Shown: piece by piece, positions 12,121 to 49,900 of the stretch | How the letters are laid out: each line of letters opens with the position of its first letter | Position numbering within the stretch: the first letter of the stretch is position 1 | DNA from: Imbricaverruca yamaguchii | Taxonomy: Eukaryota; Arthropoda; Thecostraca; Neoverrucidae | Direction: 5' to 3' | NCBI GenBank assembly: GCA_034440575.1 | Contig: JAOTOL010001471.1 | Location: 744,001 to 808,000, forward strand | Length of the DNA stretch: 64,000 nt | Notes under the pieces: generated by a model | What the model saw: only the letters and a program-made list of their open reading frames with translations | What the model was told of the DNA's origin: nothing | Databases searched by the model: none | Made by a program: the position numbers and the translations under genes

Positions 12121-12335
12121 CTACTCGACCCAACGTCCGCAGCTTATAACTCGCACGTTGTGCCACATGTCTGGCCGGTTCATAGTGGAGACGGTGCGTA
12201 GGAAGTCCAGACCCCGGCGCACATAGCCGAACACCAGTGTAAAGCTGTAGTCCCGGTACTCGCGCGTCTCAGACAACCAGATCATGAACTGGGAGCCGAT
12301 CAAGCCTCGCATCTCGCCGTCGTACATCACCGTCC
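12121..12335 (-). CDS. Gene A coding exon 4: C-terminal part of cyclophilin-like domain, with stop
   Basis: A 215-bp exon after a GTGACAG acceptor. It encodes LIGSQFMIWL (compare GSQFFI of cyclophilins), YSFTLVFGYVRRGLDFL (compare HVVFGKVKEGMDVV), and ends VRVISCGRWVE then TAG (compare ITIADCGQL). This fixes the 3' end of the gene. No canonical AATAAA is obvious in the 250 bp downstream. The acceptor is the last member of a short tandem array (12316-12558). Confidence 0.8.
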
Positions 12336-15300
12336 CTGTCACCGGATAACAGAGGTTACAGGTTTGAACTGCCATCGTGCATCACCGTCCCGGGAACACC
12401 GGCAACCCGGTACCTCCGGGTAACAGTGTCGCAGGTCACAACGACCGTTGTGCGTCACCGTCCCTTCCACCGGGTAACGGAGCCAGAGGCCACAATGATC
12501 ACCGTGCGTCACCGACACTGCCACCGGGCAACAGGGGTCACAGGTCACAATGGTCACCAACCAAAGAAGGAACAAGGCGAGTCAGACCTGGACAAAGGTC
12601 GGGCCGAGCTGGAGTTGACTCAGTTCGAAACTACCGAAACACAAAGACGCCACTGTGCACACACTACACTGATCAATTACATAGGACACTGCAAGCAAAG
12701 GAGGTACACTGTGTTTGAAGTACACCAAACAGATGACATCAACTTGAAACATGTTCACTTTTGAAGATCAAGGCCAGTTGTCACTCACCACCTAGCTGAG
12801 GAGCATTCAGAGTGTCCAAGGTTCATCTACTACCAAATTTCATAACATTAAAAGTTCACAGCGTCCAAAAAGCGAAATGAATTACAAAATGTCTTGGATA
12901 TAGTGCATTCACAATGTAAAAAGTTCTTGACACCCAACAATCACAAACTGGGTTCAGAGGGAGCGTTTATAACGTACAAAGCTCATTTACATCCAAGGAT
13001 CATACAGTCTAAAAATAGTTCTTCAATAGTTGATATCAATAGTTCTTCAATATCAGAGGAGCTAGTAGAAGCACTGGTGGTGAAATCATGTAGCTAGGTA
13101 AGGTTAGCTTAGGCAGACTTCACTATCAGGGGGTTACTGGTTCCAGACAATTGGGCGACTATTTTTTGATTTTATGATCCATAGATGCAAATGGACTTTG
13201 TAAGTTATGAATGCTCTCTCTCCCCTATCTCAGGAGCTAGTTTTGGAGGTTATGAGCATTGGATGTTATGAATTTTGAACATCGTGAATGCTCTCTATCC
13301 AGGATATCTTCGACTTTATTTTGCTTTTTTGACGATATGCTCCTTGGACGTTGAACTTTCGAGGTTATGAACTTTTGGAAGTAAATGAAACTTGAATGTT
13401 ATATGGCCCCGGCAACTGAGACCAGCAACCCCCCTCACCCTCTCATCACTTACCGGCACCTTTCATTCTGATGGCACCACACTCGTCCTTCAGCGGGCAC
13501 TGATCGGCCATGACATATTTCTCAGGCGATTTCGCCAGCGGGGAAAAGCCATCCTCACTGTCGATCCGCCCGCCCAGCACGTAGTCGTCGGGCACCGCAA
13601 AGTGGAAGTCTGTGGCATGGCGAACACGTCAGCACGCACGCGCTGGCCGACGGGCGAGCACACAACACGTCTGATATTTCGAAACTGATAACAGCATCAA
13701 GCAGTACAGGAAGCCTGCGGACACATCAGTGAACAAGTCAGCTAACACTTTATTGGTAGATACCAATTAGGAGTACCATGGGGACACCCTGGTATATTTT
13801 TTTTTCCAGGAAGGCAAGCCCTAGGCGGATTTTTCCGAAACGTCCCCACTTAAATGACATTTTCTCGAAATCTAAGAACACTTCTATCAGAAGAATATGG
13901 TATTAAACGGACCCACTGATAGCTGTTAAAATATGAAGTGTTTTGAAATCGGATAAAAATTAAATTGCGCCACCCCAAAACCGATCGACAATCAGTCTTC
14001 TGAATCCGCCAGCGTGGAGGTACACGACGGAGGTCAGGTCAACACATGACAGAACACAACCAAGCAATCAACCCGAATACAGGCCGACTGGCATTATAAG
14101 ACGCGTCACCGTACATTCACTGCAGAACACGCGATAAAAAGATGCCGCCCACAGCCGAGTCAGTGTATGGTCATCGCCAGAGGGCGCGCTGATGTAGCAC
14201 GACTCACGGGTGTTATTGAAGTGGCCGCGCTCGGAGAGTTTGACGAAGTTCTGGCACATGACGGGTGCCATGTCGGGTCGCAGCTCGATGATAATGTTGG
14301 CACGGTTTGTACCGTTAGTCACCACCATGTTGTAGAGCGGGAACAAGCCGCGCAGTGGCCGCGCCACGGACGCCGCGGGAGCAGCGCACGCCACCGCGGT
14401 CGTCTCACCGGGCTTCTTTACCACACTGGAGAAGGTGAGCGGGGAGGCTGCCTTGGCGCTCGCAGCGCCATTGCGCGCTGTCGCAGTCTTGTTAGTGGAC
14501 GCTGGCTTGGCGGACGCTGTCTTAGCGGGGGTCGTGGCGCTGATTGAGGAATTACTTTCAGATGAATGGGCAGATTTAACATTGGCTTGAGCGGTCGACG
14601 AAGTACTAGCATTTGCGGTGTTTGGCTTGCTTAATGACGTGGGAATTTTACCGATTTTATTCTGGGGTTTAGATGTACCATTAAGTAAAATTCCATTGGT
14701 CGCCGTAGATGGTTTACAAACTGCACCCGTAGCCAGACCAGTGGACTTAACACCACTGTCACCTTTAGCGCCGTCGCAACTGGGCTTGAGGGCGGAACTC
14801 TCATGAGACGTGTTGTCCAACCCAGTGACATTATCAGACATCGGTTCAGGATCCAGACAATAGAACAAGGTGCTGGCAGCCAAGACCGCCTTGGCCACGT
14901 TCCCATCATGCAACCACTCGTCAATTGGGAATGCCACCAGCTCGACACCACCCAACAGAGACAGTTGGGCGCGAGAGTCGAGCAGACTCTGGCACCGTTT
15001 AGCCACCGCCGCCGTCTCTTTAACGTTGGGCGACGTGTGCACGAGGTGAGTGTTTATCATCTCGTAGGTGTCGGCCAGCTCGTGGTCGGGTACCGCGTCG
15101 ACGGCTTCGCGCCTGCGCTCCACCTCGCAGAGGATGTCATCGTCCATCTGTAGGTCCATGTCGAACTCGTCAACGGCGCGGCGGGCAGCGTCTGCCGCCG
15201 ACGTGAGCACGCTGTGAGCCAACCGGTACAGACGCAGCACCACCGTTCGGTTGTGTTTGATCTGCTCTATCTGCTCAGTCACTTGCACCGCCAGCTCCCG

Positions 15301-18300
15301 CAGCATGTCGCGAGCCTCGGGCATGGCCAGCAGCCGGTGGCCTCGGCAGTCACGGCCAGCCAAGCAGCCGCACGTTCTGCAGAACGACTGCACACTGCAA
15401 CGCATACACAGACACCACGTGTCAGCGGACCAGCGGGAAACCGACGTTGGTCGCCACACGTTATGCAGGACGACTACGAACTGCAACGTACACACATATG
15501 CACCATACACCAGCGTTGGAAAAATGGCCCTTTTTTGGAACTTTTGCCATCCAAAGAATTATACACTCCGGAAAAAATACACTCCTTGCATTGCCGGATG
15601 AAGGCAAGGTTAACTAGCAAGAGAGCTATATGTCATTATACAATAGTGATAACTTGGGTGGAAAGGAAGATTCAGTCATACCGGGTCCCTTACCACATAA
15701 AATTTCCAGTATAATTGAGGATAATACACATTTGTTATTTCAGGTCACCTGTAGGCACATTCCAAGAGGAGGCAGGAGTGGAGTCAAAAATGAGATGGCA
15801 GCCAGATTGGAAGAATATCAGCTTGCTAGCACGCACAAGTACAACAGATGTCAACAAATGGAAAAATATGGATCACTGCAGTCTGAATATGATTGTACAG
15901 CCACTGACCATTCCAATATTTCATAACATTCCATCCTCCATATCATTACATAACATTCCATTTGTGCACGTGTGATTTCTGGTGAAGTGCAGGTGAATTA
16001 ATAAACAGCCACCAATGCATTTATGTGTATGTTCTGCATTTATGTAAAAACCTCAAAACAGAGTCAAGATGTTCCCAGAAGAATGCATGGATGAACACCA
16101 AGAGCTAGAGTGGCATTCACACAACTGGTAAGCCACAAAGTGTAGCACTTCCCCAAATCCCCAAAATACTGGTGGATATGAGCCATGTTTTGCTACCGCA
16201 TAGGAATTTTCATGGGCATTATTACTTTTCCACACATATTTTACACACATTTTATCTCCATGAAGCATACAAAGGTATTTGGTTTGGCTATGTTATGCTA
16301 GATTTTTTTGTTGTAAGTTAGCCATTTATCAAATTCATTTTGCGATCATTCAGGATTATAAAACAGTTTTTGAAGTTAAAATAAAAACACTCAGGCTAGC
16401 ATAGGCTGCTTGGTTAGAATAGGCCATTTAGTTTTTTTATGATAAATTGCTTAGAAAATCTCCATTAAAAATCCTTTCTTGCACCCAGATAGGCTGCAGC
16501 TTTTTTCTTCATTTTAACATTACATTTCATGGTATATTTCCCAACAAAACCCGAGCCACTTTTTTTGGTGTCATTTTGCTACCCAATTGCACTTGCCAAA
16601 AAAATGTGTGGTCACATCACGTAAGTACCTACATTATGAACACATTCATAATCATTGCATGAAAAATAAATTTCAAGAAATCCAATCACCTTAAACTGCA
16701 AATTTAACCATTCAGAAAGTCAGAGACCAGAAATGTTAAAAGTATAATGGTATTCAATGGAGAATGGGGACAGGGGACCTAACAATTCCCTGAACATTTC
16801 ATGAATGCACAAATAATGCTTGAATGCATGCATATCTATAATATCTGCAGTCAATGTGCATTGAAGAGGCCCAGCCCCCATTTTGAAAGAAAAACATTCA
16901 CGCTTTAAAATGTGGTAAGTGAAAACAGGATTTTCCAGACAAAGGCAAAGCAATCAGTTTTGCTCATTACTACGCTTGTCGGCAAAACATCGCAGCAATT
17001 AATATTACCATGTCCTTCTCCTTGCATTATCTGAAGATATCCCGTCACACAACACAAGCTTACAGCTTTGGTTTATCCAAATCAATAACTCGAATAACCG
17101 CGAAGATATTTGATATGGGTAAGCAGTTATGTACCTACAGCAAAGGGCCTTGCCTACAGCCACGCAATACCAACTCTCATACCTCGAACCAAACACGCAG
17201 TCAATTCCATACGGATAGCAGCGAAGAGCTTTAAAGAAAATCCTTCGTTGAATAAAAAATCACTACGCTCCGCTAACCAAATAAAGGAATTCATCTTTAC
17301 CAGCCCAAGAACGTACAACGGTCCGTTTTTGGATTCACTGTTTTCACCGCTCTCCATTTCCCACTCCGGCCGGAGCTATTTAAACCATTGCCACGAAAAG
17401 CCATGGATAATGTATTTCTTTTTGCTTCCTTGGAGAATGATATGTTCTGCATCAAATGGGATGGATAAAACCGTTCATATTTATATTATTAAGCAGTCAG
17501 GAGAGATATACATAAAAGATATCGGAGGGATTTTCCCCATGCAAATTGCCTGAATGGCACCAAAACGTTCCTAAAACCTGCAAACACCTTGTTCCAAAAT
17601 GAAGATCCATAGAACCAGAAATTTCACCTTCTTTCGATCTCATGACTTGTATTTTTTCCGAATGTCATCAACAAGCGGGAATAGTTGTATTCATGCCACT
17701 CCGACCGCGAGGTTTCCCCACTCCGGACAAATTCAGATTTACGTGTGTTGACCTAATCCTGTACACTCTTATAAGTCTCATACTGATCCAATGATTATTT
17801 TTTTCCCCATAATCCTGATTATTATTAATTGAGAAAAAGGTTCCTTGTAATTCTCTTGGCAGTTTTCTCAACTTATTTTCATTTTTTAGTATTTCATAGC
17901 AATCATGGTGCGAAATGAGACGCTAATTTCCGCTCGTCCGTGACGATAGTCTGTTTTACAGCGGCAATTTGCCCGCTCGTCTAGTCGCTTTTCATCGTTC
18001 CAAGTCATTCTTGCTTCTACTAAACATTCCAGACAGGAACGAAATACATTTAATATTAGTAAGAATTGACTTCAATATTTTTTTTTCAGCTTTCTCATTT
18101 GAAAAACGAACATTGCATGGTCGAGAGAATAAAAGATTTTAGACGGATTGTTTTAGTATAACTTTCCTTAAACCACTATATATTCCGAAACCCATATTCC
18201 AAAGTAACATTTTAGACCCTCCCGTAGATTAGCCGGTGCACGAACGTCCTGCTTTCGAGGTATATTTATTAGTATTAGTATTAGTTGCGCGTTGTTGGTA

Positions 18301-21300
18301 TGTCAGGAGTGACAGGTATTGGTATATAAACTTGGTTGACATCGATTAAGTATACTTTTGTGATCATTTTCTCTAACATTGCTCAGGAAGTTGCCTTATA
18401 AGTCATTCACGTAACGTGGATGACTTCAGACGACGATGTGTGGTGGACCCCATCTGGTTGACTGTGAGACACTAGGATAGGAACCTAACAAATGACTTGA
18501 AGGCGTTTTATTCTTGAAGAAGTAGAATTGTCGGGTTATTTTACGACGCATTCAGCCGCAAGGTTGAGGGGCGGGGATGGCCGAGTGGTTAAGGTGTCGG
18601 GCTGTGGGTTCCAAAGGTCCCGGGTTCGACTCTAGCGCCACTCAGGACATTTCCCAATCCCGCGGCCCACCGGTGAAACAGTGTGGGCGGCGCCATTAGC
18701 CGTGAATGTGCATAAAGTGTGTCGTGAACCAACCAATAAACAAACCGCAAGGTTGTATAGCGTCGCCAACCTATCACACGGATTGGTCGTGGGTGGACTG
18801 CAAATCCCGCCGGCCGCGAGATTCGAGTCCCACGCTCCACCATCTAAGCTACCGAGCCCCCGGTTTTTATTCTTCATTCCAGAAAACAGCACTGCATTTT
18901 TCAAAATGTATACACTTCGTTATTTTTGAAATGTATACACTTCGTTATTTTTAAAATGTATATACTCCATTACTTAGTGCTTCAATATACACCCCATAAC
19001 TTGGCAAACTTGGAAATCACACACCCCATAACATAGTGCTTCTCAAGATTATGCACTCCATACTTTGGCAAGCCAAAAAAATATACACTCCGAATCCAAG
19101 ACCGAGAAGTGAAAATCCAACACTGCCATACACACACACACACACACAAATTATACGGAAGACACGTTCTACGGAACGACCGCACACTGAAACACATGCA
19201 CACACACACACACACCACTGTGTCAGTGGACTAATGGGGAAACGAAGCCGTTCGCCACAGGAACCCAAACAGAAGAGAAGCCAACCAGCACATAGAAAGG
19301 TGGGACCGATTGAAGCCACGCATCTCATCATGTGTCGGTCGGTGACTGGAAATCTGAAGAAAATCTCCCTTGCGTTGTCTGTTATACTTTTATCGCGAAA
19401 TAGGGTGGAATACCCCTCGATATTTCGCCCAGCATTGAGCAACACAAAATAGCTGTGCTCCTTGGCAATGACTGCACCTGACGACAACCAACACAGCCAA
19501 TGACTCGCCCCCACGTCACATCCCAGGCCAGGATCTCGACGAGGGCCTTTTACAGATTTGATACAGTTAAACGGCAATACTACGGCAGATAGTCTCAATG
19601 GCCACTAAATGATATGCAGCATTCCTCCCACTAGTAAAATACTCCTCATGCTTCATTATTTACTATTTACATATGTGTTGTTGTTTTTCCACAGCTATGC
19701 AGATTAATCATGCTATGCAGATTAATCATGACCAGATGCTTTGCAATTCTATGCAGATTAATCATGACCACATTCCGAGCGGTGGGGCCGAAAGGATAAT
19801 TTTTATATAGCATCCCTACATATGAATATGCACCTCACGACAGTGTAAAATAATTGACCATGTGGGTTGGAATTGTGCTATTTCATCCTTCTTAGGTTTT
19901 TACCATTTTGCTATATGTGTGGGTAGTCATTATACACACGACTGCTAAAAAAATGTTAAATGCATGTGACTGAAGTGAAAGACATTCTGCTTTTTAATTC
20001 TTAAGTGGCGATCCTTTATTTTCTTTCAATCTTTCACTATTCCCAAGCAACATCTTTCTTCATCCACAGTTAATGGTGAAGTCATTTTAGGACACTGCCT
20101 CACGAACAAAGGCAATTTCATCCCCTTCATGCAGTGTCCTTGGTTTCCATGCTCTTGGAATCATAGAGAATAATTCAATGACTCCAAAATATCTCAATGG
20201 TTGTAGTCACATTTCCTTTGCAGACATATCTACATACATAGACACATACACCTTTGCAAATAAACATATTCCCAATTGCCACCCCTCCATACCCTAACAA
20301 CTCAGCAACCGACAAAGCCCACTTGCAGTCCAAGCTCATACACAATATGTGCAAACAGATCAGGGCTTCTTGTTTTTCTTATGAGAAAAACAAACTCAAC
20401 CCACTTGCAGATGTTCAGAAGTAAATCAATTACCTGGTTGTTTGTTCTTCTTGGCATAAAGTTGTTAGTTTATTTATTCATATTTTCAATCACCAGAGAA
20501 AAGGTGATAAAACAATTGGCATTGCAAGGAAAGAAAAAACGATGTTGGGGACCAAAAAACCTTACATGGCCCAATATTATAGCTGCATGCTATATAGGTA
20601 TTATCTATAAAATATATGAAATACATAAATAAAAGCTTAACCGCCTAAACAGTAAACTATTTTATTTACTTTTTGGATATGGGAGGCCAGGAATAGGGGA
20701 TTTTCTGAAAGTGAACACATTATCTTTATAACAGTGAGTGTAGTACCTATCAATTTCAGGCACAGAACATAATATTTTCAGATATATTTATGAAATTGGA
20801 GTGTAAAACTGTGTGCAAAAAGTACATTCCTTGTACAAAAAGCAGACCAAGAAGCCAATAAGATTCTTAATTACTAAAAAAATTATACAAAAAAAATGCA
20901 AAATTGTATTGGCATCACAAAACTCCATCAGCATTGTGGTTATGGTGAAATATTTGACACAGAAGACCTCGTCTTCTTTCTGTTTGGATTCTGGGCACAA
21001 ACTACCTTTCACAGGCAAGGGCTTGAAATACATGAGCTAAGCTATAGATTCAGAATTTCACACTGACCCCCTACCCCTTTCTGAGCCTGGCATGAAACAT
21101 CCTGTGTCAGCACCATAGGGATGGCCACCTCAGCACTCAATATTTACCCGTGTTTGGCGGCGGCAGCGGCGTTGATTTGCGGCATCAGATAGACGTTGTC
21201 GGAGAGCGCCTGGGGGCCTTTCGGCACGGCAGTGAGGTCGGAACAGCTGGGGCAACACACCATGCCTTCCACTGTCAGCTGGCTGAGACATTGCAGGCAG

Positions 21301-21401
21301 AACGTGTGCTGCAGCCCGCCGCCACACTTGAGGAACTTTGGCAGCCTCGAGTTACCATTATAGGCTTGCTCACACAGCCCACAGAGCAGATGGTCAGCCA
21401 T
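12121..21401 (-). CDS. Gene A: RING / B-box-like / cyclophilin-like domain protein (4 coding exons)
   Basis: Exons, in transcript order on the minus strand, are 21401-21148, 15394-14208, 13609-13454 and 12335-12121. They join in phase (2, 1, 1) to give about 603 aa ending in TAG. Residues 1-55 hold a C3HC4 RING (C7, C10, C26, H32, C35, C38, C50, C53), so E3 ubiquitin-ligase activity is the family expectation. A B-box-like Cys/His cluster follows at about 88-105, then a helical, charged region typical of RBCC/TRIM proteins to about 200, a Ser/Thr/Ala/Lys-rich linker to about 430, and a cyclophilin-like fold from about 440 to the end (IIIELRPDMAP, VLGGRID, GSQFMIWL, VVFG-like LVFGYVRRG). The usual catalytic Arg of FHR is replaced (FHF), so isomerase activity is doubtful. 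I do not recognise a gene name. The first Cys/His pair of the B-box is not clear, so a small exon may be missing in the 5.7-kb first intron. Confidence 0.8.
12316..12558 (-). repeat. Tandem array grown from the gene A exon 4 acceptor
   Basis: Four imperfect units of about 54-70 bp share the pattern CATCACCGTCCC, then CACCGG(G/A)TAAC, then AGGTCACAA on the plus strand. The first unit is the true exon-4 start with its acceptor. In the minus direction two of the three extra units keep an AG at the splice position. Confidence 0.7.
12750..13390. repeat. Degenerate short repeats in gene A intron 3
   Basis: Diverged blocks such as GTTCA(C/T)A(G/A)CGTCCAAAA-like and TGAATGCTCTCT (twice, near 13207 and 13283) recur. 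AGTTCTTCAATA is repeated at 13017 and 13042. Confidence 0.4.
13454..13609 (-). CDS. Gene A coding exon 3: middle of cyclophilin-like domain
   Basis: A 156-bp exon between a CCACAG acceptor and a G|GTAAGT donor. The product reads HFHFAVPDDYVLGGRIDSED and on to CGAIRMKGAG, which aligns with the FHRVIP..QGGD to LSMAN stretch of cyclophilins. The Arg of the FHR motif is Phe here. Both phases are 1 and match the neighbouring exons. Confidence 0.75.
14208..15394 (-). CDS. Gene A coding exon 2: B-box-like module, helical region, linker, start of cyclophilin-like fold
   Basis: A 1187-bp exon opened by a TTGCAG acceptor (an alternative in-phase CTGCAG acceptor would start it at 15376). It encodes FCRTCGCLAGRDCRGHRLLA (second half of a B-box), a charged helical region with EQIEQIKHN, a cyclophilin-unrelated linker rich in S, T, A, K and N, and then LYNMVVTNGTNRANIIIELR, which resembles the first strands of cyclophilin. 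The exon ends in phase 1 at a consensus donor, C|GTGAGT. The frame stays open to 14068, but the homology stops at this donor. Confidence 0.78.
15372..15520 (-). repeat. Two tandem copies of the gene A exon 2 acceptor region
   Basis: The segment around the exon-2 acceptor (15372-15455) is followed by a second, shorter copy (15457-15520). Shared blocks are ACGACT(G/A)C, ACTGCAACG and ACACA followed by CCA. A third copy lies inside the first intron at 19150-19256. Confidence 0.6.
15521..18555. other. Gene A intron 1, distal part, no gene recognised
   Basis: AT-rich intronic sequence. Short open frames on both strands show no recognised motif. Confidence 0.5.
18573..18744 (+). mobile_element. 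tRNA-derived SINE (family 1) with 11-bp target duplication
   Basis: The head is tRNA-like: GGGGATGGCCGAGTGGTTAA (A box, Leu/Ser type) and GGTCCCGGGTTCGACTC (B box). The body GGACATTTCCCAATCCCGCG is shared with copies near 2480 and 3100. The tail is AATAAACAAA. CCGCAAGGTTG at 18556-18566 and 18745-18755 is a perfect target-site duplication. It lies in intron 1 of gene A on the opposite strand. Confidence 0.88.
18758..18865 (-). mobile_element. SINE family 2 copy, tRNA-derived
   Basis: In minus orientation: CTCGGTAGCTTAGATGGTGG (A box), GGGACTCGAATCTCG (B-box-like), then CCAATCCGTGTGATAGGTTG and GCGACGCTATA. It directly follows the target duplication of the family 1 SINE. Confidence 0.6.
18898..19085 (+). 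repeat. Diverged minisatellite, period about 28 bp
   Basis: Units such as AATGTATACACTTCGTTATT are near-perfect at 18904-18958 and decay to 19085. Similar TACACTCC blocks occur at 15560-15590. Confidence 0.65.
19150..19256 (-). repeat. Distant copy of the gene A exon 2 acceptor region
   Basis: It matches 15372-15455 over about 85 bp (ACGTTCT, ACGAC(C/T)GCACACTG, GTGTCAG(T/C)GGAC, GGGAAAC, TTCGCCACA) with a CA-repeat expansion in the middle. It lies in intron 1 of gene A, in the same orientation as the exon copy. Confidence 0.6.
19694..19767 (+). repeat. Three copies of CTATGCAGATTAATCATG
   Basis: Two copies are adjacent and one follows 19 bp later. Confidence 0.8.
19860..21140. other. Gene A intron 1, proximal part, no gene recognised
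   Basis: AT-rich; no conserved protein motif seen. Confidence 0.5.
21148..21401 (-). CDS. Gene A coding exon 1: RING finger
   Basis: Starts with ATG at 21401, four bases after a CTGCAG acceptor-like site, so a 5' untranslated exon probably lies upstream (higher coordinates). It encodes the complete C3HC4 RING; CGLCEQ and CLQC are the zinc ligand motifs. It ends in phase 2 at a GTAAAT donor (21147-21142). The 5' part of this exon, with its acceptor and ATG, is duplicated 120 bp upstream. Confidence 0.8.
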
Positions 21402-21485
21402 TGGTCTGCAGCAGGGAACATGTGGTCAGACAGCTACAAACACGACCACATTCAGCCAAAAATATGCAGAGCAGCCATTTTGCAC

Positions 21486-21563
21486 ATGCTCTCACAGCCC
21501 ACAGAACAGATGGCCCACCATTAGTTTGCAGTAGGGAGCATGTGGTCAGATGGCTACAAAGAC
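21486..21563 (-). repeat. Copy of the 5' end of gene A exon 1 (acceptor, ATG and first codons)
   Basis: About 78 bp at 21366-21443 are repeated 120 bp away with roughly 87% identity. The copy keeps the acceptor-like TTTGCAG/CTGCAAAC region and an ATG at 21521, but its frame stops after nine codons. It lies just upstream of the true exon in the transcript direction. Confidence 0.75.
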
Positions 21564-22102
21564 AACTTCGTCACTGATTTGGTGAGCATGCAATGGAAAA
21601 GGTTTTTTTTTCAATCAAAAATATATAATTAACAAAAAATGCCAGAAAAAATATTGTGCTGCTATGGTGTATGGTACTGTTTGACAATGGCTGTAAATTC
21701 ATTGAATTTACTGAATAGTGCATTACACTGTATTTATAAACAGGAGTTTCTGGTGTTACAAACAGGAAAAATACCGTCTCTGAAATGTATGGCTTCAAAA
21801 TTAAAGCCGATTGTGCCAAGCCGCCCAACAGAGCAGTCTGGTGGGTAGCCCGGTTCCAGTAACTGGAGCAGGTAATAACCTGATAAAGTGCTCCTATATA
21901 GGTGACCTGAGGTCAAATGGCTGATCTGGCATCTGTATTGCATCATTAGTAATGTCCAAAACATCATTAATACCAATTTTGGAGCATTTAAACACAATCA
22001 CAATGATTCATAACAATGACATGCCAAGATGCAGAAAACCAGAAATTTTGCTATTTTAACCTCATTTGACCTTGAAGATAGTGACCTAGGATCATGAAAT
22101 TT

Positions 22103-22567: not shown

Positions 22568-22740
22568 TGAACTTGGTAGAATAAGCTCAATATGGCATAG
22601 CAATACTAAGATTCTTGGCACTGGATCCCATGTGCTGTATCCATGACCTTGAACTAGAACCTATATACCACTGCATTGATAAGAAGTTTAGTTGCAGGTT
22701 TGTTTGGAACCCAGGGTATGGTTTTGATTGAAGTACAAGT

Positions 22741-22815
22741 GTTCTTTTTCTAGTATCTTCCCTCTACAGGTCAAACCCAGATGGGCCCCTGTATCTCTTA
22801 CCAAGCTTTCACATT
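22741..22815 (+). repeat. Direct repeat, copy 1
   Basis: Nearly identical to 23396-23470 over about 75 bp (GTTCTTTTTCTAGTATCTTC to ACCAAGCTTTCACA), inside the inverted-repeat spacer. Confidence 0.85.
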
Positions 22816-23395
22816 GTATGAATATGATTTAATGTCATAAACTGACAAAGATGCACTTCCTGCAGGAATCACTGGTAGCATCATTCCAATCATGGTCAGA
22901 AAAGATGCTTTGCCAACATTCTTCAACTGAAATGCCTTGTGGGTCTGAAGTGCAAATGCAAATGTAATTAAGCTGTAAAGGAGAAACTCTGAATTTACTC
23001 AAAATTAAGGAACGTTCTGTTCAGAAAAAAAAGTATTCTTGTTTCAGTTGGATTTTTTTTAATTGTTAAAAATTTGAAGCTGTTTTCTTCAAAAGCAGGT
23101 AACATTAGGTTAGGTTAGGCTGGGCTGTTTTTCAGTTAGGAAAATTCATAGAAAATTTACTTGTTAATTTTTCAGATTACATTTGCATTTCTTCTCTAAA
23201 GAGGTTAGGCTTGGTTAGGTTAGGTTGTGTCAAATTGCAATTTCAATTGAATCAACATTGCTTCTCATACTATGTTACCAAACTCAAAGCCAATTTTTGG
23301 TGCTATTTTGCTTCAAACAGAAAACCATGCATTTGCATGGAAAATGAGTGGTCCATCAGCTTTGTCACATCCATAAAAACAAATTCACAGGAAGT

Positions 23396-23470
23396 GTTCT
23401 TTTTCTAGTATCTTCCCTCTACAGGTCAAACCCAGATGGGCCCCTGTGTCTCTTACCAAGCTTTCACAAG
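23396..23470 (+). repeat. Direct repeat, copy 2
   Basis: Copy of 22741-22815 with one or two mismatches, just before the right inverted arm. Confidence 0.85.
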
Positions 23471-23745: not shown

Positions 23746-23749
23746 TTAC

Positions 23750-32562: not shown

Positions 32563-32588
32563 ACCATTGACGCCTCATAATATGCACA

Positions 32589-37900: not shown

Positions 37901-40900
37901 GAAGGTTTTGCTCAGCTGACGGTCAGTCCACACGGTAAGAGCGCAGCTCGTCACACTGTCACACTGATGTCACGGGGTCAGCTGACTGTCAGTCCGCACG
38001 GTAGGAGCGCAGCTCGGTACACTATGACACTGGTGTCACGGGGTCAGCTGACTGTCAGTCCACACGGTAAGAGCGCAGCTCGGCACACTGTTACACTGAT
38101 GTCACGGGGCCAGCTGACTGTCAGTCCACATGGTAGGAGCGCAGCTCGGTACACTATGACACTGGTGTCACGGGGTCACCTGACTGTCAGTCCACATGGT
38201 AGGAGCGCAGCTCGGTACACTATGACACTGGTGTCACGGGGTCACCTGACTGTCAGTCCACATGGTAGGAGCGCAGCTCGGTACACTATGACACTGGTGT
38301 CACGGGGTCAGCTGACTGTCTGTCCACACAGTAGGAGCGCAGCTCGGTACACTATGATACTGGTGTCACGGGGTCAGCTGACCTCCAGTTTACACGACAA
38401 GGGCGCAGCTCGGTACACTATGACACTAGTGTCACGGGGTCAGCTGACCTCCAGTTTACACGACAAGGGCGCAGCTCGGTACACTATGACACTGGTGTCA
38501 CGGGGTCAGCTGACTGTCAGTCCACACGGCAGGAGCGCAGCTCGGTACACTATGACACTGGTGTCACGGGGTCACCTGACTGTCAGTCCACATGGTAGGA
38601 GCGCGGCTCGGTACACTATGACACTGGTGTCACGGGGTCAGCTGACTGTCAGTCCACACGGCAGGAGCGCAGCTCGGTACACTATGACACTAGTGTCACG
38701 GGGTCAGCTGACCTCCAGTTTACACGACAAGGGCGCAGTGGCGCGCACTACCGCACTAGTGCCACTAGCTCGGCTGTTATGTCGGTCCACACAGTAACAC
38801 TGTATATTTTGAAATGTAAAAATTGGTATGCTCGGAGGAGGTTTGAATGCTTTTAGTCTTGTCATTGATGTTTCGTATTATGGTCGTGCTCCAGGTATTG
38901 CTTCAGTACAGCTCCAACCTCCCCACAGTTTCGTCGCGACTGACCAATCAGGCGGCCTAAAAGATCACTTAATGCACATGATCGGAGTTATTTTGTGTCA
39001 AGTGCAATGTTGAAAGTTACTGTGCTTGGCCGGGATACTCGGCTCGGGAGAGAGCGCTGGTCCGGTTGGAAAACTCGAGTTTCAGTTTGCGTGCTCTGAC
39101 AGGTGAGCCAAACCAAAATGTGGTGGTGTGGATGGACCACCGAGCGATGGACGAGGCCGAACTTATCACTGGACTGCAGCACGAGGTACTGTACAACGTT
39201 GGGGGCACCATATCGCCTGAGATGCAGACGCCTAAGCTGCTCTGGCTGAAGCGACACCTAGGCAGCACCTGGGAGCGTGCAGCGCACTTTTTCGACCTCC
39301 CCGACTTCCTCACGTGGAAGGCGACGGGTTCACTCGCCAGGTAAGCCATTGGTGACGTCACGGGTGACGTCACCATTGGCCGGATGGACCACTGGTGGCG
39401 TCGTCATGTCCAGGCATGCCACTGGTCATTTCACCAGGAGCAGATAAGCAGCCGATGAGCTGTAGCAGTGGCAAAGATATGGGCGGTGTTGGGTGGCACC
39501 CTCAATCGGCCGCGCTGTGACAGTGGTGGACTTCCCTCTGAGGATTGAGCGGCGCCATGTGTTCGGTGTTGCTGTCCACGCAGGTCGCTCTGCACACTCG
39601 TCTGCAAGTGGACGTACCAGGCGGACGGCGCGCACGCCGGCTGGAACAAGTCCTACTTCGAGCAGATCGGGCTGGGAGAGCTGGCAGGGGACGGCTGGAA
39701 GCGGATAGGTGAGACCAAAGTGGATAGCGGCTCCATCACCTGACGTCAACGGCTAGCTCAGCCTCTGTGTGTGCTTCTGTTCTGCGGAGCGATGTTTGGG
39801 TGGGTATTATAACTACCTTTTGTTGTGCTTTTCTCCGAACTCGGCTGGTGTGCTTTTGTTTGCTATCAGTAAGTGTATCTTTGGGTGTCGCCGCTAGTTG
39901 TGGCTGCTATGGTGCGCATGCGGTGCCGGTGTTGGTGTTAGGCATGTGTCTGCTTAACACCAACGCTCCTAACACCAACTACGGCACTGCGGGCAGTCCC
40001 GTTGTTGGTGTTAGGCGCGTGATGGCTCGATGGACTCAGGTAGTGTTGCTGTCAGTGCTGGACGTGCGACTGCCCAAGGGACTTGTGTCTATTTCACGAG
40101 CTTCACCGTCTGCGGCCGTGAATCCGATTCACTTCGAACGACTGGCTGCTTCATGATATTCTCGACCTTATCTTTGAACACTGATCAGGCTATGGAGGCC
40201 TCACCACTCATTAGGGTGGCTGCAGCTGAACTTCCTCAACTTACAACTCCTCAACAATCACAATTGCTGGCTGGGTATCGTCAAAAGCTTAGGACTTGTC
40301 AAACTCAACGATGACATAATGTCGCTCACTTGCATCAGTTTCTTTCTTCTCTAACAGCTGCTCCAGCTTGGAGGCTCGACTCATCCACTTTTTCCCCCAT
40401 TTTTTTTACTTTTTCCGCCGCCCTCACTTTTCTTAACTGCGTTCAGTCTGCCAATCCCAATTTCTAGCACTAGTTTCATGTTTTACTAGCACTAGTTTTA
40501 CCTCCATCACTAAAACAACAGTTTGCTCCTATCGCTAACTATTTATCTGGCAAGGAAATCACATAAAAAATGAATAAGATATAGCTGTGACAGAAATATA
40601 AAACAAGGATATCAATCGTTGCGTATAGGCGTGTCCTCAGCTCTTCTCCCTGACAATGCACCACGAGGTTATACATGAGGATCGATAATCTTATGTTTTA
40701 TATGTATACAATCTTATATGTATACTAACTTTGGGTATTTGCTGCGAAAGCCAGTTACATCCGGGAACACAGTGACGTCACTGCACTCAGCCGATCACGT
40801 CGGCGAAGTCTTGTCACCTGAGTACGTGACATTTCGTCCTAGATCGACTCACCCGTCAGTTGGCGTGCTCAGTGTCACCTATAGATCGCAGGACACAACA

Positions 40901-43900
40901 CCACTGCCACCACCGACAGGACGACTCACCTTCGCTCCCCTGATGGAAGGACGCTCGATACACGGGCAAACCTCGGAACAGCCAGTATCAGACTGTCGAA
41001 CGTGCGTCAGCTCAATGGCACAAGTGGTGCCAGTGTCAGTGCCGACGTGTGTCCGTTGCAGGGAATTGAGTGGTGCCAGTGTAAATGCTGGATGCCTGTT
41101 TTCCCCTGGGACATGGGTGGTGCCGGTGTCGGTGCTGGATGAGAGTTTGCTGCCAAGACTCAGTCGGTGTCGGAGTCGATACGGGAAGAGTGCCTGTCCC
41201 TGGGACTCAGGTGGCACACGTACCAGGCTGGACGTGTGTTCGCTACAGGAAGGCAGGTGGTGCCACCCGGCTCTCCGTTGGGTGAAGGCCTGAGTGCGGA
41301 AGCGGCATCCCAGCTGGGATTACTGCCTGGCACTCGGGTGGGCGCCGCCATTATCGACGCGCACGCCGGTGGCCTCGGTCTGATGGCGTGCGACGCAGCC
41401 GCTGCTGACCCCTGCGCCAGACTCGGTGAGTGTCACTGGTACCCGCACCAGCATCGGCGCGTGTCGCGCCTCGCGTCCTGGCAGCCGACTGTGGGGGTCG
41501 CTGGCTCCGGTATGCTGGCCGGCGCTGGTCTGTCACGGACCGGTAGCTCTGATACTGTCCGGTGTCGTGTGGTCGTCTGGCGATTGGGCGGTCCCTGCAG
41601 TTGCGCAGCTCGATTTCCCACAAGATTTGACGTTCGATCTGAGCTGAAGGGTCACCTATCACCACAGGTACAAAAAGGGAGTGTCAGTCGAAAGATTTCG
41701 TCCCACCTCACACTGCCGTATTTGTTTCGTCTCCGGCACGTTTCGTTTGGAAATGCCGGGAGTCACACTACCCCCCCCCCCCACCACCACCACCACCACT
41801 GGCAAAGGTGGCGACATGCCGCACACGGGTGAGGGTCAACACACGCCCTAGGGGCCTTTTTCACACAATGCGGCTCGGAGGGATGGGAGAGCGAATTCGC
41901 CCCATCCATAAGGTCTTTGGAACTACTGAAGCTAGAAGCACACAATTTGGAGGGTAGATTACGGCTGCAGTGAACTCGTTTCGGTATACATGATCTCCCT
42001 ACCTACATTCACCCGATGTCTTCAGTGTCAACTGTCTTCAAAATTGATCGGCACACCACGCGTCGAAACCTTTGTGACCTCTAACGTTCGACGATCAGTC
42101 GATTAAATTAATATCGAAATTGGTTGATCAAATTAATATTCAACAAATAAACAAATTAATTTTGATAATACCGAGTTCTCATCAGCGCTACACGATGGCC
42201 TTTCCTTGGTAGGCTTCAGCCAGCCAAAAGAGTTGCCTTACCCCTAGTGTATGTTCGGGTACAGCCCTTCGTCATACCTATAAAACAATAAATTCAAAGC
42301 ACAAATCATCGGTGGCATGTTATTTATATATGCAAACATTTATATATACATATTTATTTGTATTTAGCAGAGATTGTTAAATACTTGTTTGAAGCGTTGC
42401 AAACTCGGTGTATGCGACCTGCTTTGGCCTCTGTCTGACCTGGTTGGACGCTGCAGGCATCATCTGTGGCACCTCGTCCTGCTTCATGGCCGTCAGTCAG
42501 CAGCCGTGCGCCACCCGTGGACTGTGGGGACCCTACTGGGGCGCTATGCTGCCTGACCTGTGGCTCACTGAGGCGGGACAGAGCGCCTCAGGTAAACTGC
42601 TCGAGTTCGTGCTGGAGAGTCACCCGGCCTGCAGCGCTGCCACACCTGCGGACCGGTACGCCAGCCCTGCGAATGCCAGCGACGGCTGCGCCCCTAAACC
42701 CCGCCCCCCAGCGACGGCTATTTCGGACATGTAGACATCCGCATTGGCCATAACGAACATGTCGAAACCTGGAGTTGTATATTAAGCTTAAACATTAATG
42801 TGAGTCATTAAAGAAATATGCTGTGGAAATATGGCTTCTAATTTTTGTTACGCAAGTGAATGGGTTCTCATTGAGATTCACATGGCATTTGTCTGTTTTT
42901 GCATTCGCATTTTGTGGATACGTTAGTTTTTACCAGCATTTTAGTAAGTTATACCACTCAGCAATTCCAAAATGATTGAAGTGATTTGTTTGAGGGAATG
43001 CGATGTGAATGGTAATTGTTAAGAATTTCCAATGCGAGATTAAGACGATTTACATTTTTCAATTCCGCGCTTATGTAGATTTGAGTAGCATGAAGATGCG
43101 TTGAAATCTGCGCTGGCGGGGAAGAGGAGGGAAGGTAAGAGGGATTCCAGTACATAAGAGGGTCCGGAAGCTGGACGAAGGCCGGTGACGGACGCAATTC
43201 CAACTCCTATGTCGACTCATAACCCTTAGCACAACCTTCCCTTTCTCTCCATCCACACCGTTTCACTAGCTTTCCCTTGCATCACGACCCAGCTAGGTTC
43301 ACTCACGAATGATGGTGGTGACGGAGAGAGAAGATTGGCCTCGCTATATAGATTTTGTCTCAGAATGGACGATTTACCGGGCGCCGACAATATGACGGTA
43401 AACAGACAGACCGTGACAGCGGGTCGCAAGAGCTGTGATCGTGCCGGCCGGGAAGGAAACGAGATCGGCACGGCTTGGAGGTAATCCATACAGCGCCCGT
43501 GAGTACAGCAAGCGGGCCGCCGCTGCCGGCGCCCATGCGTAAATTTCTGGCAAATGCCGTAGTGCGCGCCCGACGTCACCACCACCAAAATGTAGTGAGA
43601 CAAGACCCAGCAAACACACTGCACTGCCACCAGTGGCAACGGAAGACGACTCCTGACCACAATCAGAAGACATCCCACCTCGCCCCACCAGATACACAAG
43701 ACTCCATAAACGAGCCAAAACTCCGAAGACATAGACAACACAGCGACGAAACTCCTCGCAGCGACTAAAAGCCGAATGCAAATACCAAGACGCCGCACCG
43801 CCCCCCCACCCGACAAGAAGACATGCCAGACGAAACGAGACGACCGAGACAAATTACGACCACGCCAAGACAGATAAGACTCCAAGACAAACCATAGCTC

Positions 43901-46900
43901 AGACACGAAGATCGGACGACACAGGCAAAAGAGAAGTGCATTTACGGTGTGTTCTTGGTCGTGTCAGGTGTGTTGGGGCTGAGCTCTGTGGCGTTGTGCC
44001 CAGTGTGAGCCTTGTTCAGGCTGAGCTGTCTAATCCATCCGAATTATCAGGTGTTCTTAGGCTACTAAGCAGTTTTGACATCTTGTTTTGTCAGATGTGC
44101 AACTCTGACGTTGTGTCCGGTCCGTCAGGTGTGTTCAGGCTGAGGTGGAGCAGGCTCTGGAAGACAAGGCTGGGCTCATGGGTCTGGCGGACGTGGCTCT
44201 GTTGGCCGCTGACCTGCATGTCTACCCAGATTACCATGGCAACCGCTCTCCGTACGCCGACCCTACGCTCAGAGGCATGGTTGGTCCGATGTAATGGGAA
44301 AGGCTGCACAGCACTACTTAGTCCGTGAGACCGTGCACAACAGTCCTGTCGGCTGCATGTGACTGCCAGGGGACGACAGCTGATCCGTCCGCACGTCGCT
44401 GCTATTAGGGGCGATCTGTTGTCTGCGTGCCGCGGTCACTACTTTATAATGGAAACCACTTTGTCACTTAGCTCTCCAATTCCGTCTTCTTTTTGTTGGC
44501 GATTTTAACGCAGGTGACACTGTTTAGGGATGCGATGATGGCAAAGCTCGTTGTCGTTTTCTTTTGTATCAGTGCAATTCTTACTCAAGGAGTCGTTATG
44601 CCTTTTACACATCGGTAGGAAAGCATGCTACGGTTTCCGTCCGGGTGGTCCTCTGCGTTGGACCTGTATATTTTGGGTCCTCAACCTACATATTTTTGTA
44701 TTAGTGGTAGTGTGGACGATAGTTATTAATGCGACAGTGTTAGAAACGAGGAATGAAGACTGCTTAAGCATCATCATTAAACACGATGTCGAGACATGAA
44801 GAAAGGCGTCGATTCAGTGTTCATTAAGTAATATGTTCCACCCATCGTCACGAAATATGTGTAACAATTTCAAAGTCACTGTCCAAGTGTTGTAACTCGT
44901 CTCGACTGATATTTGCTTGCTTCCCTGTTTGAATTACGAAATAGTGGACGCTGTACGATATATGCAGTCGGTGAACCATATAGCATAATAACTAGTTCGT
45001 CCTATCCGACGTGCCCTAGTCCCGTGATGAACAGATAAATGTGCAGACGCATGTGCACATAGAAACGGGTGTGTTGTACATTCACCAAGAATAGTTCCGT
45101 TGAAATCATGATTGTCTTTTAGAGGCCCTGAAACGATGTGCTGTACAGACAGCTAAGTAGTCTTGGAGAGAACATGCGGACCAAATATACAAGCATGGCC
45201 TAACTGGGCAAGTGTGTTCAGGGGACAAGAGTTGTAATGACACCCCAGTTGTCGGTCAGTTTACTAGCAGTAGAACCCGTATTCGTAGCCTAGCGTGACC
45301 TGAAAACCTCATCAACCCGCGCCGTCTCGAGGGGGTCGTTGACGACCCCTCATAAGGTTTTCCGCGGATAGTGAAAGAACGGCGCGCAACAGCGCGCCGA
45401 AAGTTGGCATACCTTTTTCTACATCAATTTGGCATGTTGTGTCAAAATTTTGAAGTCCGGTCACCGAGGTTCAACGAGTTAAGTTAAGGTCAAGTGAGGT
45501 CACCTCCCAAAAAAGTTAAACCAGTCATCACGCTTTAACGGATAAAGATCTTATAGTGAAAATATCAGCATTTGCTTATCTTTAGGGATGCAACAAAACG
45601 TACGAGAGGAAGTTTTCATTTTTTTCCGTTTTTGATTACTTATTCATTTCACATACTTGCCTATTAGAGTTCAAATATAAGATTCTGGCTGAAGTAGGCA
45701 TTTTTTATTAGAGCAAGTTGACTTCGAACAACGTTTTTCGGTTTTCTCTATCCATTATAAAAGGAAAATCAAAGAAACTTGAAAACTCACCATTTTGAAA
45801 TTTCAAAACAAATTTGTAACAAAAATTTTTGGGTAGCCAAAAATTTCATGGCCCTGGTCGATTTCGCTCTCCTTTTCTGATTCCAAATCATTTTTGTTTT
45901 GTTTTTCAAACCTCCCTCAAAATGAACCCCCCAGAGCCACAAACATAATGTAAGTCGTGAAACTCCAGGGCCCCTAGTGACGTTACTATTTGGGAGGAAA
46001 CATTTTTTTTGGGTGTGCCTGGCCCTACTCGTCGAGCGCTTTCCGATTACACCCATTTCGTTTTCGTGCGGTATTTAGTTAGAAGATTATATGGGGGTCT
46101 CTATCAACCCCTCTCGAGATGGGGTGTGAGGATCTGACAGAAGAGATGGGGCGGATTAATAGGAACATAGTTATCATGGTAGTCGAAGCGCCCTTATCCC
46201 GCAATTCACTGAGTGGGCTTTTCCTTCCGCATTTGCTTTTATGCGATAACAGCCCAATCAATTGAGACTGAAGCTTGAGACTTTCAGTCCCTTCAAATAA
46301 ACACCTGGAGTATCTTGTGTAAAAATCGCTTCAATGTCATCTTAGGTCACGTCCTAATGACGTCATGAAGTCGTTCGTAGGTGCTATTATTTACGTTATA
46401 AATGGTTGATGGTTGCTATGAGATGCAATGGGACCAATGTACATTTTCAGATCAATATAGATGCAGTTTGTGCACCAGAGACCATTTTGTTACCGTGAGA
46501 CCTTGACTAACTCGTTCTTAGTCATATTGATTCTGTTCATTTTATTCAAATATAGTGACCGCTGAAGACTTGGCAAGTCATTCGCTTTCGAATGCCATTT
46601 CAATCGGTGTAATATGTTCATTGATTACAAGCATACGGGGAAGCCCCCTCACAGTGACTCGTGTAAAAGAAAATAGCCCAGTGATTGTCGAGTTAAGCCA
46701 GAAACTACCACTTGAGTACCACGCCAGTGGACGGGCAACAATGTCCGTACAAGTGGGTGACGTGATCTGACATGACCTGTTCGGCAGGTCAGTGGACTAA
46801 CACTGGATACCAGTCGAGACAGCCTAGCCGTGCAGTATCTGGCAACAATGCAGGCCATAGCTGTACGTACTGATAGTGACGATGAAGTGCTGGTGCTTTT

Positions 46901-49900
46901 GGCTCCACAACCCCTCTCGTTGGGGATCCACCACCCTGACCCTCAGTCTGTACCGCCCCCCCCCCCCACACCCACACTGTGGCTCCACGACACCATCACT
47001 GGACTTTACCATCCCACACTGGGACTCCACGACTTCTTCACATATTTGAGCGCTATATGATCAATGACGTCGATGCGGCCTAAAGCCCAAACAACTAGCT
47101 AGCTGACCACTCTCTCTCGCTGAGGGTCCGTCGCCTTCACCTTCGCTGGGACCATCACTGAGACTTTACCCCTGCACAAACTGTCGTTTATCGATCGTCA
47201 TCACTGGGCCTCCACCACCCCATGATCCCTTACGGTGGCTCCCTTCTTATAAATTAGCGTAATTAATCAGACTGCCCAATCGAACACCTTTCGTTTAATT
47301 ACCGCTCGATATGTTTTCTTTGGTAGATGTTCTGCTGCCAATGTTTCGTTGGATGACTTGGCTACCATGTGTTCGTTATTGCTATGGCTCGTTAGTTTCA
47401 TTGATGTCATTAGTTTCATAGCTTTTTCTGTTTTGTCTGATACAGGGATCACCAGCGTTTGTGCATGAAGGCCAGAACTACCACGGCCAGTAACTGAAGT
47501 GTTGGCCCTACAGTACGGCTGTGGACCGTTTGTGTGTGACTAGTGTGTTGGCCCTACAGTACGGCTGTGGACCGTCTATGTGACTAGTGTGTTGGCCCTA
47601 CAGTACGGCTGTGGACCATTTCTGTGTGACTAGTGTGTTGGCCCTACAGTACGGCTGTGGACCGTCTGCGGAACTGGAGTGTTGGCTGTTGACCGTCTGT
47701 GTGTGGCTTGTGTGTTGGCCCTACAGTACGGCTGTGGACCGTCTGTGTGTGACTAGTGTGTTGACCCTACAGTAGGACTGTGGACCGTCGGTGTGACTGG
47801 TGTGTTGGCCCTACAGCACGGCTGAGGACCGTTTGTGTGTGACTAGTGTGTTGGCTCTACAGTACGGCTGTGGACCGTTTGTGTGTGACTAGTGTGTTGG
47901 CCCTACAGTACGGCTGTGGACCGCCTGTGTGTGACTAGTGTGTTGGTCCTACAGTACGGCTGTGGACCGTTTGTGTGTGACTAGTGTGTTGGCCCTACAG
48001 TACGGCTGTGGACCGTCTGTGTGTGACTGGTGTGTTGGCCCTACAGTACGGCTGTGGACCGTTTCTGTGTGACTAGTGTGTTGGTCCTACAGTACGGCTG
48101 TGGACCGTTTCTGTGTGTGACTAGTGTGTTGGCTCTACAGTACGGCTGTGGACCGTTTCTGTGTGACTAATGTGTTGGTCCTACAGTACGGCTGTGGACC
48201 GTTTGTGTGTGACTAGTGTGTTGGCCCTACAATACGGCTGTGGACTGTTTGTGTGTGACTAGTGTGTTGGCCCTACAGTACGGCTGTGGACTGTCTCTGT
48301 GTGACTAGTGTGTTGGCCCTACAGTACGGCTGTGGACCGTTTCTGTGTGACTAGTGGGTTGGCTCTACAGTACGGCTGTTGACCGTCTGTGTGACTGATG
48401 TGTTGATCCTACAGTACGGCTCGCGGTGTATTGTGGATGCCATGAAGTCGGGCGGACATCAGATCTCTGCAGTGTACATCTGTGGCGGCATCACCAACTC
48501 TCCGCTATTCATCAAAACGCTGGCCGATGTGCTTGGTATGTGGATTTCACCCTTGTGGACGGGGCATGTGTATTATCATCCGGACTGTCGTTAGGTATTT
48601 GAATCAATAATCAAATATAGTATGTGGATTTTTCCTCACAAGAATCTTCGTAATAATTGGGATATTTTACCGAAGTTTCAAAATACCTGGTGTTTTTGCT
48701 CTTGAGCCATAATATACCCTCTGCTATACGTTGTCCGTTTTGATGATCTTCCCCTCCACATTTGTATGCGGCAGTTTTTTCTGCAAACTTCACAGTCAGG
48801 CAAGTTCTCGAGAATTGCGAAAAGGGTCACATATGGGTAGTGAAATATGGCCATGCAAAACTTACGCTACAACAGGAGAATCGGTTATAATTCTAGGATA
48901 AGCGCAGTGCTTTTCTGCAAGTTCGGTGCGCCTGCACATTTACTGCGAAGGTGGCTTTGATGATGATCTGATGCCAGGTGTCGCCTAGTACGTGGAGTGA
49001 CTACAGACCCCCTGGTTGGCCAGGTGTGCCGGTGACCTGTCCCGATCAGCCGGAGGCGGTGCTGTTGGGCTCCGCCATGTTGGGCGCCGTAGCCTGGGGG
49101 CTTGACCTAGGTCGAGTCAGGCAGCTAATGGGAGGTTCTGGTCGCCGGGTGGTGCCACAGCCTCACATTGCCAGGTGAGATTACGCTCCGCCAGCCGCGG
49201 TATGCCAGCAGAGCTTATGAGCGTCTGCCGTGACCGGGGAACTGGATAGTTTGCCCTTCGAGGAACATGTGCATCAATGACACACGCAAGCTTGAGAGTG
49301 AATGCAAATAACTTAGTGTATTGCATCCTCGGTTTGCAAGCCGTGATCTGCCCTGACAAAAATCCTTGTTGGGCATATGAAGAGGTCGGCATGTCTGTGT
49401 CCTTACATTGAGCACACGTTTTTAAAATTTAGTTCGGCACCTTTTGGGTTATCTGAAATGTATAAGTTTCCAAAGCTCAGTACCGAAGTAAATCGCGTTT
49501 ATCCAACATACTTTGTAAGTATAAGCAGAAAGTTCGTTGGTTCCCCCTCGACAAGGGTATTTTGTTTTTCTTCCTTCATTAAGTTCAAACACAATGATTA
49601 TATTAGTTCCCCTCCCCTCCCCCACCTTCCTCGACTGGAGATTTGGTGGACTAGTCGGGTTTGAGGGAGACTGGACAGACTGCTATCAAGTCACGTACCG
49701 AGTACCGAATATGCCGGTGACTGGGCGTTATAGCGTTGTCTGTCGGTTTGCCCTAATATTTCACCTTGCATTTGATCTTGGAGGTCAACAGATATCGTAA
49801 TACGGACATCGGATTCGTAAATAATTTTTCGAGATGGACCTGAAACCAAGTTTCGGAAGGAATTGGAGCCCGTATGTGAGTCCAAACACAAATGCGAATA

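Follow-up and report, generated by a model that had tools for sequence, protein, structure and literature searches.

What process would place copy after copy of a splice junction in the intron beside it? This question is raised by a stretch of 64,000 nucleotides from the barnacle Imbricaverruca yamaguchii (GenBank assembly GCA_034440575.1, contig JAOTOL010001471.1, positions 744,001 to 808,000 of the forward strand), referred to here as the window. Two genes were rebuilt in it: a FGGY carbohydrate kinase gene on the plus strand, and on the minus strand a gene whose product has RING and cyclophilin parts, here called gene A. The original prediction, made from the letters of the window, held that seven exon edges of these genes carry one to 19 copies of their own junction on the intron side, with the real exon as the terminal unit. 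All seven sets were confirmed, each scoring above every one of 200 shuffled controls. Structures of this kind are already known from amphioxus; their occurrence in a crustacean is the new part, within the open-licence literature that was searched.

Seven exon edges are copied into the adjoining introns

Junction copies were sought at 26 exon edges by taking the 60 bases centred on each border, scoring their best local match within 800 bases and repeating the comparison on 200 block shuffles of the flanks. Seven edges scored above all of their shuffles, each with its match on the intron side, and they are exactly the seven of the original prediction. At every one of the remaining 19 edges at least five of the 200 shuffles equalled the observed score. 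A 27th edge, the acceptor of FGGY exon 11, scored 62. The seven sets are as follows, each with none of 200 shuffles reaching its score.

21349 to 21594, minus strand: gene A exon 1 acceptor, real junction and one copy (junction 21525, 120 base pairs (bp) upstream; 74 of 92 bases matching; AG lost); score 210
15367 to 15515, minus strand: gene A exon 2 acceptor, real junction and one copy (junction 15480, 86 bp away; 42 of 51 bases matching; AG kept); score 158
12317 to 12558, minus strand: gene A exon 4 acceptor, real junction and three copies (12390, 12463, 12517; AG kept in two); score 134
37910 to 38796, plus strand: FGGY exon 2 donor, 66-bp array, real donor and 12 copies; score 239
41021 to 41265, plus strand: FGGY exon 5 acceptor, real junction and two degenerate copies (about 41018 and about 41063); score 95
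43932 to 44147, plus strand: FGGY exon 7 acceptor, real junction and two copies (43968, 44010); score 118
47490 to 48441, plus strand: FGGY exon 9 acceptor, 46-bp array, real junction and 19 copies; score 167

The authentic junction is the terminal unit in all seven sets and the copies lie on its intron side; reading frame and orthologues suggest that the terminal site is the one used. Five of the sets are small, with one to three copies whose aligned bases are about 79 to 85% identical, and Tandem Repeats Finder (TRF) alone detects two of the seven. The weakest case is the acceptor of FGGY exon 5, where each copy matches at 35 of 44 bases. Three further weak matches upstream of gene A exon 1 (scores 88 to 94) were left uncounted.

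The two large arrays display the copies in long series. At the exon 2 donor of FGGY all 12 copies follow at strict 66-bp steps, and the real unit stands only slightly apart from them (86.7% versus 82.8%). The array at the exon 9 acceptor has mostly 46-bp spacing, and the exon sequence common to exon 9 and the units is short (TACGGCT). Here the copies are 90.4% alike among themselves and the real unit is 69.7% like the copies; the exon-bound unit has not shared in the homogenisation of its neighbours.

Junction copies in genes outside the window

The assembly (767,457,503 bases in 1430 contigs) was sampled further with genes picked by Pfam match alone, blind to repeats. Gene C, a paralogue of the kinase on contig C1225, carries a donor series: its first-exon donor (CTGCCGGGCAG before the border, GTGAGT after it) belongs to a row of 17 units, including the real one, that reaches about 1.2 kb into the intron. 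GT is kept in 17 of the 17 units, and ten steps between units measure 56 bp while six measure 94 to 139 bp. The last-exon acceptor of the same gene has one copy 61 bases upstream (score 153, 0 of 200 shuffles), so that two of its four edges have copies; the middle exon has none.

Gene D, for glycerol kinase (contig C1393), gave the opposite outcome. Its exons were mapped with the human protein sequence, leaving the exon 8 donor and exon 9 acceptor unplaced, and none of its 20 edges reached a score of 100, though about a quarter of its intron sequence consists of arrays. Two edges that beat all 200 shuffles were not counted: the match of the exon 3 donor (score 79) falls inside an 11-bp array, and that of the exon 5 acceptor (score 95) is to exon 4, not to the intron. 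Arrays in the glycerol kinase often stop just short of exons, and three of them (L011, 1607-1816; L016, 1467-1634 and 4724-4901) end or start about 4 to 12 bases off an exon edge and do not include the junction. A coarse screen of the first outside loci had flagged L005, L003 and L001, with many control positions equally high; L003 was rejected, its 11-bp unit being without the junction.

The largest sample came from chaperonin (CCT) loci, the best 30 of 66 Pfam matches, with edges placed from the ends of the Pfam match and the splice consensus, not from alignments. Seven of 56 scored edges reached 100. The removal of eight edges, in four loci resembling second alleles, left six of 48, and across gene C, gene D and the chaperonin loci the total is eight of 72 edges, four of them donors and four acceptors. 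A preference for acceptors, suggested by the window (6 of 14 versus 1 of 13 donors, Fisher P 0.077), was dropped for this reason. Two cases in the sample are weak: L029 scored 103, with 1 of 200 shuffles reaching that score, and at L032 the single copy lies 204 bp off and lacks GT. At L033 two edges beat all shuffles at the low scores of 88 and 70 and were not counted.

Two chaperonin loci deserve closer description. The acceptor of L042 has six copies spaced 72 to 96 bp apart, in units that include tens of exon bases. This locus (contig C89) and L043 (contig C1012) carry the same chaperonin exon and are 95.9% alike over 3.2 kb; each contig has six acceptor copies, with offsets differing by up to 24 bp between these two contigs. 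The assembly may therefore hold both alleles of some regions, with C1273 and C207 perhaps another such pair. The donor of L041 lies in a nearly fresh 96-bp duplication, 92 of 95 bases being alike. Its first unit begins at TGTGCGTG in the exon and its second ends at TGTGCGTG in the intron, an 8-bp direct repeat. This is the footprint that would be expected of slippage or exchange between an exonic and an intronic half of such a repeat. Junction-spanning arrays are thus common in this barnacle genome, and the proposal of a recurrent duplication of DNA across exon-intron boundaries is supported in the window as well as in other genes of the assembly.

Probable counterparts of the amphioxus mirages

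The original prediction knew of no description of such a pattern, and in this it was mistaken. Tandem copies of exon/intron boundaries, named mirages, are described in amphioxus (Branchiostoma) genes, among them Adh3, troponin C, the globins BflGb6 and BflGb9, and PGBD5 (PMC3087553, PMC3902484; these and the other papers below are cited for excerpts). PMC3902484 covers PGBD5 and troponin C, and in the excerpts the Adh and troponin C mirages yield no aberrant mRNAs. Mirage units there range from 10 to about 160 bp and occur at donors and acceptors, often with AG or GT kept, and the units at the boundary are not homogenised (PMC3087553, PMC3902484).

The barnacle structures resemble these in several respects. 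Minisatellite-like units span the exon-intron boundary (7 of 26 edges), the copies lie intron-side with the authentic junction terminal (seven of seven sets), and many, not all, copies keep AG or GT (18 of 19 at exon 9; 7 of 12 at exon 2). The unit at the border escapes homogenisation clearly at exon 9 and slightly at exon 2, the other sets being too small to tell. Unlike amphioxus, the barnacle is a crustacean and belongs to another phylum, and here seven edges lie in two neighbouring genes, with others in further genes and their frequency counted. The excerpts on amphioxus report normal splicing for several mirages, whereas the barnacle case is known from DNA.

Two other systems come near. 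Human genes in segmental duplications have minisatellites, with units of 30 bp on average, at exon-intron boundaries, where they can alter splicing (PMC2812944). As presented in the excerpt, those repeats were chosen as variable between paralogues and belong to young duplications, whereas the barnacle arrays lie in conserved genes. A review (PMC3443670) treats the gain of introns when AGGT is spanned by a tandem genomic duplication; as in the barnacle, exon sequence with splice signals is duplicated in tandem, but that event, as the excerpt describes it, creates a new intron inside an exon, while in the barnacle an existing border is copied and the intron would grow. No crustacean case was found in the open-licence papers searched.

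We consider it probable that the barnacle sets are counterparts of the amphioxus mirages, produced by unspecific slippage or unequal exchange followed by selection that spares the outermost junction. On this reading, short tandem duplications would arise frequently in introns of the barnacle genome. Where short direct repeats happen to lie on either side of the border, one exonic and one intronic, slippage or unequal exchange between them would produce a duplication of about 40 to 120 bp. The inner copy of the junction would then fall wholly within the intron and the outermost would still be attached to the full exon, so that the event would be nearly neutral provided that the spliceosome continues to choose the outermost site. 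The likely reason for that choice is exon definition, which, with short exons among mostly longer introns, would favour the site next to the real exon. The tandem pair may subsequently expand and homogenise as a minisatellite, up to 19 copies, while the real unit, constrained on one side by selection, would lag behind. Arrays would be found only on the intron side because duplications within exons are lost through purifying selection. Because tandem arrays abound in the introns, the process would not require any enzyme or signal able to recognise splice sites, although exon edges may still be somewhat favoured. The copies, their location, the lagging real unit of the 46-bp array and one nearly fresh duplication with a flanking direct repeat are all seen in the DNA; slippage or exchange as the initiating step, the outermost choice by splicing and neutrality are what we infer from them.

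Are exon edges favoured sites of duplication?

The principal rival to unspecific duplication makes exon edges duplication hot spots, where a factor linked to transcription or splicing (R-loops, paused polymerase, pyrimidine tracts or the spliceosome) biases replication or repair. The window speaks for it most strongly. When the local-repeat clusters of the two gene spans were placed at random, with an exon overlap of at most 60 bases and 5000 placements, 7 of 13 clusters touched a junction at the middle setting against 0.72 expected, and none of the placements was as extreme, which bears out the original prediction that seven such edges are more than chance would give. Over ten settings, the number of clusters touching a junction was 4 to 7, with 0.30 to 1.38 expected, and P never exceeded 0.001. 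With exact array ends, the junction was contained in three of six gene A arrays (0.28 expected) and in four of eight FGGY arrays (0.43 expected). All window placement figures are post hoc, because the hypothesis arose from the window.

Counted per position, the window excess is smaller. At score 90, 7 of 27 edges qualify against 15.7% of 1444 intron positions, and when the three largest arrays are removed, 5 of 25 edges against 5.7% of 1278 intron positions (binomial P 0.012). In a position test with strict scoring, a score of 36 was reached by 5 of 26 edges and by 9 to 10% of random positions, a weak test because long arrays occupy many positions. None of 116 positions in exon interiors lay within local repeats. 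In the two window genes 13% and 16% of intron sequence consists of arrays, compared with 58% in gene C and 26% in gene D; with local arrays so dense throughout introns, an unspecific duplication process is at hand.

In the genes picked blind outside the window, a junction is included in 9 of 88 arrays, with 4.2 expected (P 0.024). Adding the arrays that come within 40 bp of a junction raises the count to 20 of 88, with 7.4 expected, a value reached in none of 5000 placements. Hot spots would predict such figures, but the strict excess is about twofold and one or more of the nine cases are open to doubt: the donor of gene D exon 5 was scored as contained, yet its array begins about 28 bases into the intron. 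Taken by subset, containment stands at 6 of 66 against 3.07 in the chaperonin loci (P 0.084) and 3 of 22 against 1.13 in genes C and D (P 0.105); arrays containing a junction or within 40 bases of one are in excess in both (14 of 66 against 5.5, P 0.0005; 6 of 22 against 1.9, P 0.011). Nor are outside edges enriched per position: set against the eight of 72 edges at score 100 are control rates of 32 of 240, 23.8% of 2531 and 55.5% of 391 intron positions. The glycerol kinase, with no edge at that score, likewise argues against hot spots.

For the reading as mirage-like, unspecific duplication, several of these results are nevertheless unfavourable and belong together. Wholly unspecific duplication predicts no excess at junctions, and an excess was observed, strongly in the window and more weakly outside it in both of the outside counts, that of arrays containing a junction and that of arrays within 40 bp of one. 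A flanking direct repeat was read in a single fresh case, and that repeat lies inside a TG-rich run. Use of the outermost site is deduced from frame and orthologues. Part of the excess, at a guess no more than about twofold, can be explained by detection bias: a junction pair would remain recognisable for longer because one of its copies is conserved.

The number of arrays at exon edges thus somewhat exceeds what uniform placement would give, and strong targeting of junctions is not shown. Of the enrichment that the original prediction called for in the wider genome, an approximately twofold excess of junction-containing arrays was found in the genes sampled outside the window, and per position there was none in those genes. 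Hot spots at exon edges seem to us unlikely on this evidence. We are similarly doubtful of a wider proposal, that co-transcriptional or splicing-linked seeding at about one exon edge in nine drives intron growth from a cause common to barnacle and amphioxus, for example very high heterozygosity favouring unequal exchange.

Decoy sites and isoforms

The original prediction offered intron growth, decoy splice sites and isoforms as possible consequences of the arrays. Intron growth would follow from the anatomy, every copy set lengthening its intron. Decoy sites are present at the DNA level, with AG kept in 18 of the 19 copies at exon 9 and GT in 7 of the 12 at exon 2. It is the third consequence, in which the copies serve as alternative splice sites, that fared badly.

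One candidate for such use is the exon 2 donor of FGGY, where splicing to successive copies would add steps of 22 residues in frame: the offsets of all 12 copies are multiples of 66 bp, and frame 0 runs on to a stop at 38795, while stops interrupt the other two frames in many or most units. An in-frame 66-bp unit free of stops would, by estimate rather than computation, not be rare by chance. Eleven of the 12 copies differ from the real donor GTAAGA (six GTAGGA, three ACAAGG and two GCAGGA), and one retains it. The translated array found no protein match at E 0.1 among 7991 scored candidates, and in the alignment the FGGY proteins of Pollicipes and Amphibalanus have no insert at this position. 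A by-eye reading of the commonest exon 9 unit, in the frame of the exon, meets a TAG before the unit ends. It is thus very unlikely that the arrays supply isoforms.

Gene models and surroundings

The exon edges on which these results depend are supported by GT-AG joins and kept frame throughout both genes and by alignment with relatives, as far as sequence can indicate. FGGY has 11 exons from 34822 to 58850 on the plus strand, and gene A has four from 21405 to 12121 on the minus strand; exons of both measure 75 to 258 bp, except gene A exon 2 with 1187, and introns are mostly longer. The exons are listed below.

21148 to 21405, minus strand: gene A exon 1, RING part with start codon (acceptor 21405/21406); alignment with two relatives
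14208 to 15394, minus strand: gene A exon 2; alignment with two relatives
13454 to 13609, minus strand: gene A exon 3, without junction copies at the shuffle criterion
12121 to 12335, minus strand: gene A exon 4, to the stop codon; alignment with two relatives
34822 to 34998, plus strand: FGGY exon 1, donor without junction copies
37817 to 37934, plus strand: FGGY exon 2 (donor 37934/37935); alignment with relatives
39103 to 39340, plus strand: FGGY exon 3, without junction copies at the shuffle criterion
39584 to 39708, plus strand: FGGY exon 4, without junction copies
41249 to 41425, plus strand: FGGY exon 5; alignment with relatives
42457 to 42655, plus strand: FGGY exon 6, without junction copies
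44129 to 44279, plus strand: FGGY exon 7; alignment with relatives
46788 to 46862, plus strand: FGGY exon 8, without junction copies at the shuffle criterion
48415 to 48535, plus strand: FGGY exon 9; alignment with relatives
49024 to 49174, plus strand: FGGY exon 10, without junction copies
58753 to 58850, plus strand: FGGY exon 11, a strong copy absent at its acceptor

Pfam domains FGGY_N and FGGY_C were found in the plus-strand product and a cyclophilin domain in that of gene A. The RING part of gene A exon 1 was assigned by eye, helped by a match of the RING-type Pfam entry PF14634 on the homologue P0122. Among the best 120 of 7999 relatives of FGGY, the closest are from Pollicipes pollicipes (72% identity) and Amphibalanus amphitrite (67%), and the others reach at most 54%; by its relatives the host falls among the thoracican barnacles. 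When exons 1 to 10 were aligned with seven relatives, both barnacles were gap-free at the nine joins from 1/2 to 9/10; among the more distant relatives, some show a one-residue difference near join 2/3 and a two-residue difference at join 6/7. For gene A, two relatives were found at E 0.001 among 7997 scored candidates, Pollicipes LOC119091909 and one JGI protein. Both can be aligned over the whole length, gap-free at joins 2/3 and 3/4, with a variable middle part of exon 2 and with two or three extra residues adjoining join 1/2.

That the sets are an artefact of wrong gene models, low-complexity sequence or misassembly, as might be suspected from five short and degenerate sets, from the two that TRF finds and from a gene A with two relatives that both differ beside join 1/2, is hardly credible given FGGY joins without gaps against two barnacles, a block-shuffle control that was passed, similar arrays in other genes of the assembly, one of them on two allele-like contigs, and copies that differ among themselves, as misassembly of one unit would not yield.

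Other repeats are found in and around the two genes. Intron 10 of FGGY holds two long degenerate 4-bp arrays (AGTC/TCAG) at 51505-52962, away from exon edges. A 24-bp/75-bp array lies at 10293-10536, about 1.6 kb beyond the stop codon of gene A, and a 29-bp array of about 32 copies occupies 62378-63263 near the end of the window, where no adjoining exon was identified. Two 77-bp copies, 99% alike and spaced 655 bp, are at 22737-22813 and 23392-23468. Pieces of reading frame resembling a Gypsy-type retroelement, picked out by eye from the list of open reading frames, lie between gene A and FGGY on the minus strand (29400-33700). A search of the window against a plasmid collection found nothing.

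Implications for intron growth

The crustacean case suggests that duplication spanning splice junctions is a more general route of intron growth and of the gain of decoy splice sites. A crustacean with mirage-like structures at eight of 72 blind-picked edges makes the question of intron growth testable, and open to test is why splicing ignores good decoy sites a few dozen bases off. The arrays offer natural series of two to 20 consecutive splice sites, almost identical to one another, that would be useful for tests of exon definition. Amphioxus has high nucleotide diversity. The barnacle Balanus improvisus has extreme nucleotide diversity, as given in the excerpt cited (PMC8270832). High diversity may be common to barnacles and amphioxus and relevant to their junction arrays, a suggestion that we put forward as such. 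Barnacles would provide a second lineage for tracing how introns are gained from duplicated junctions.

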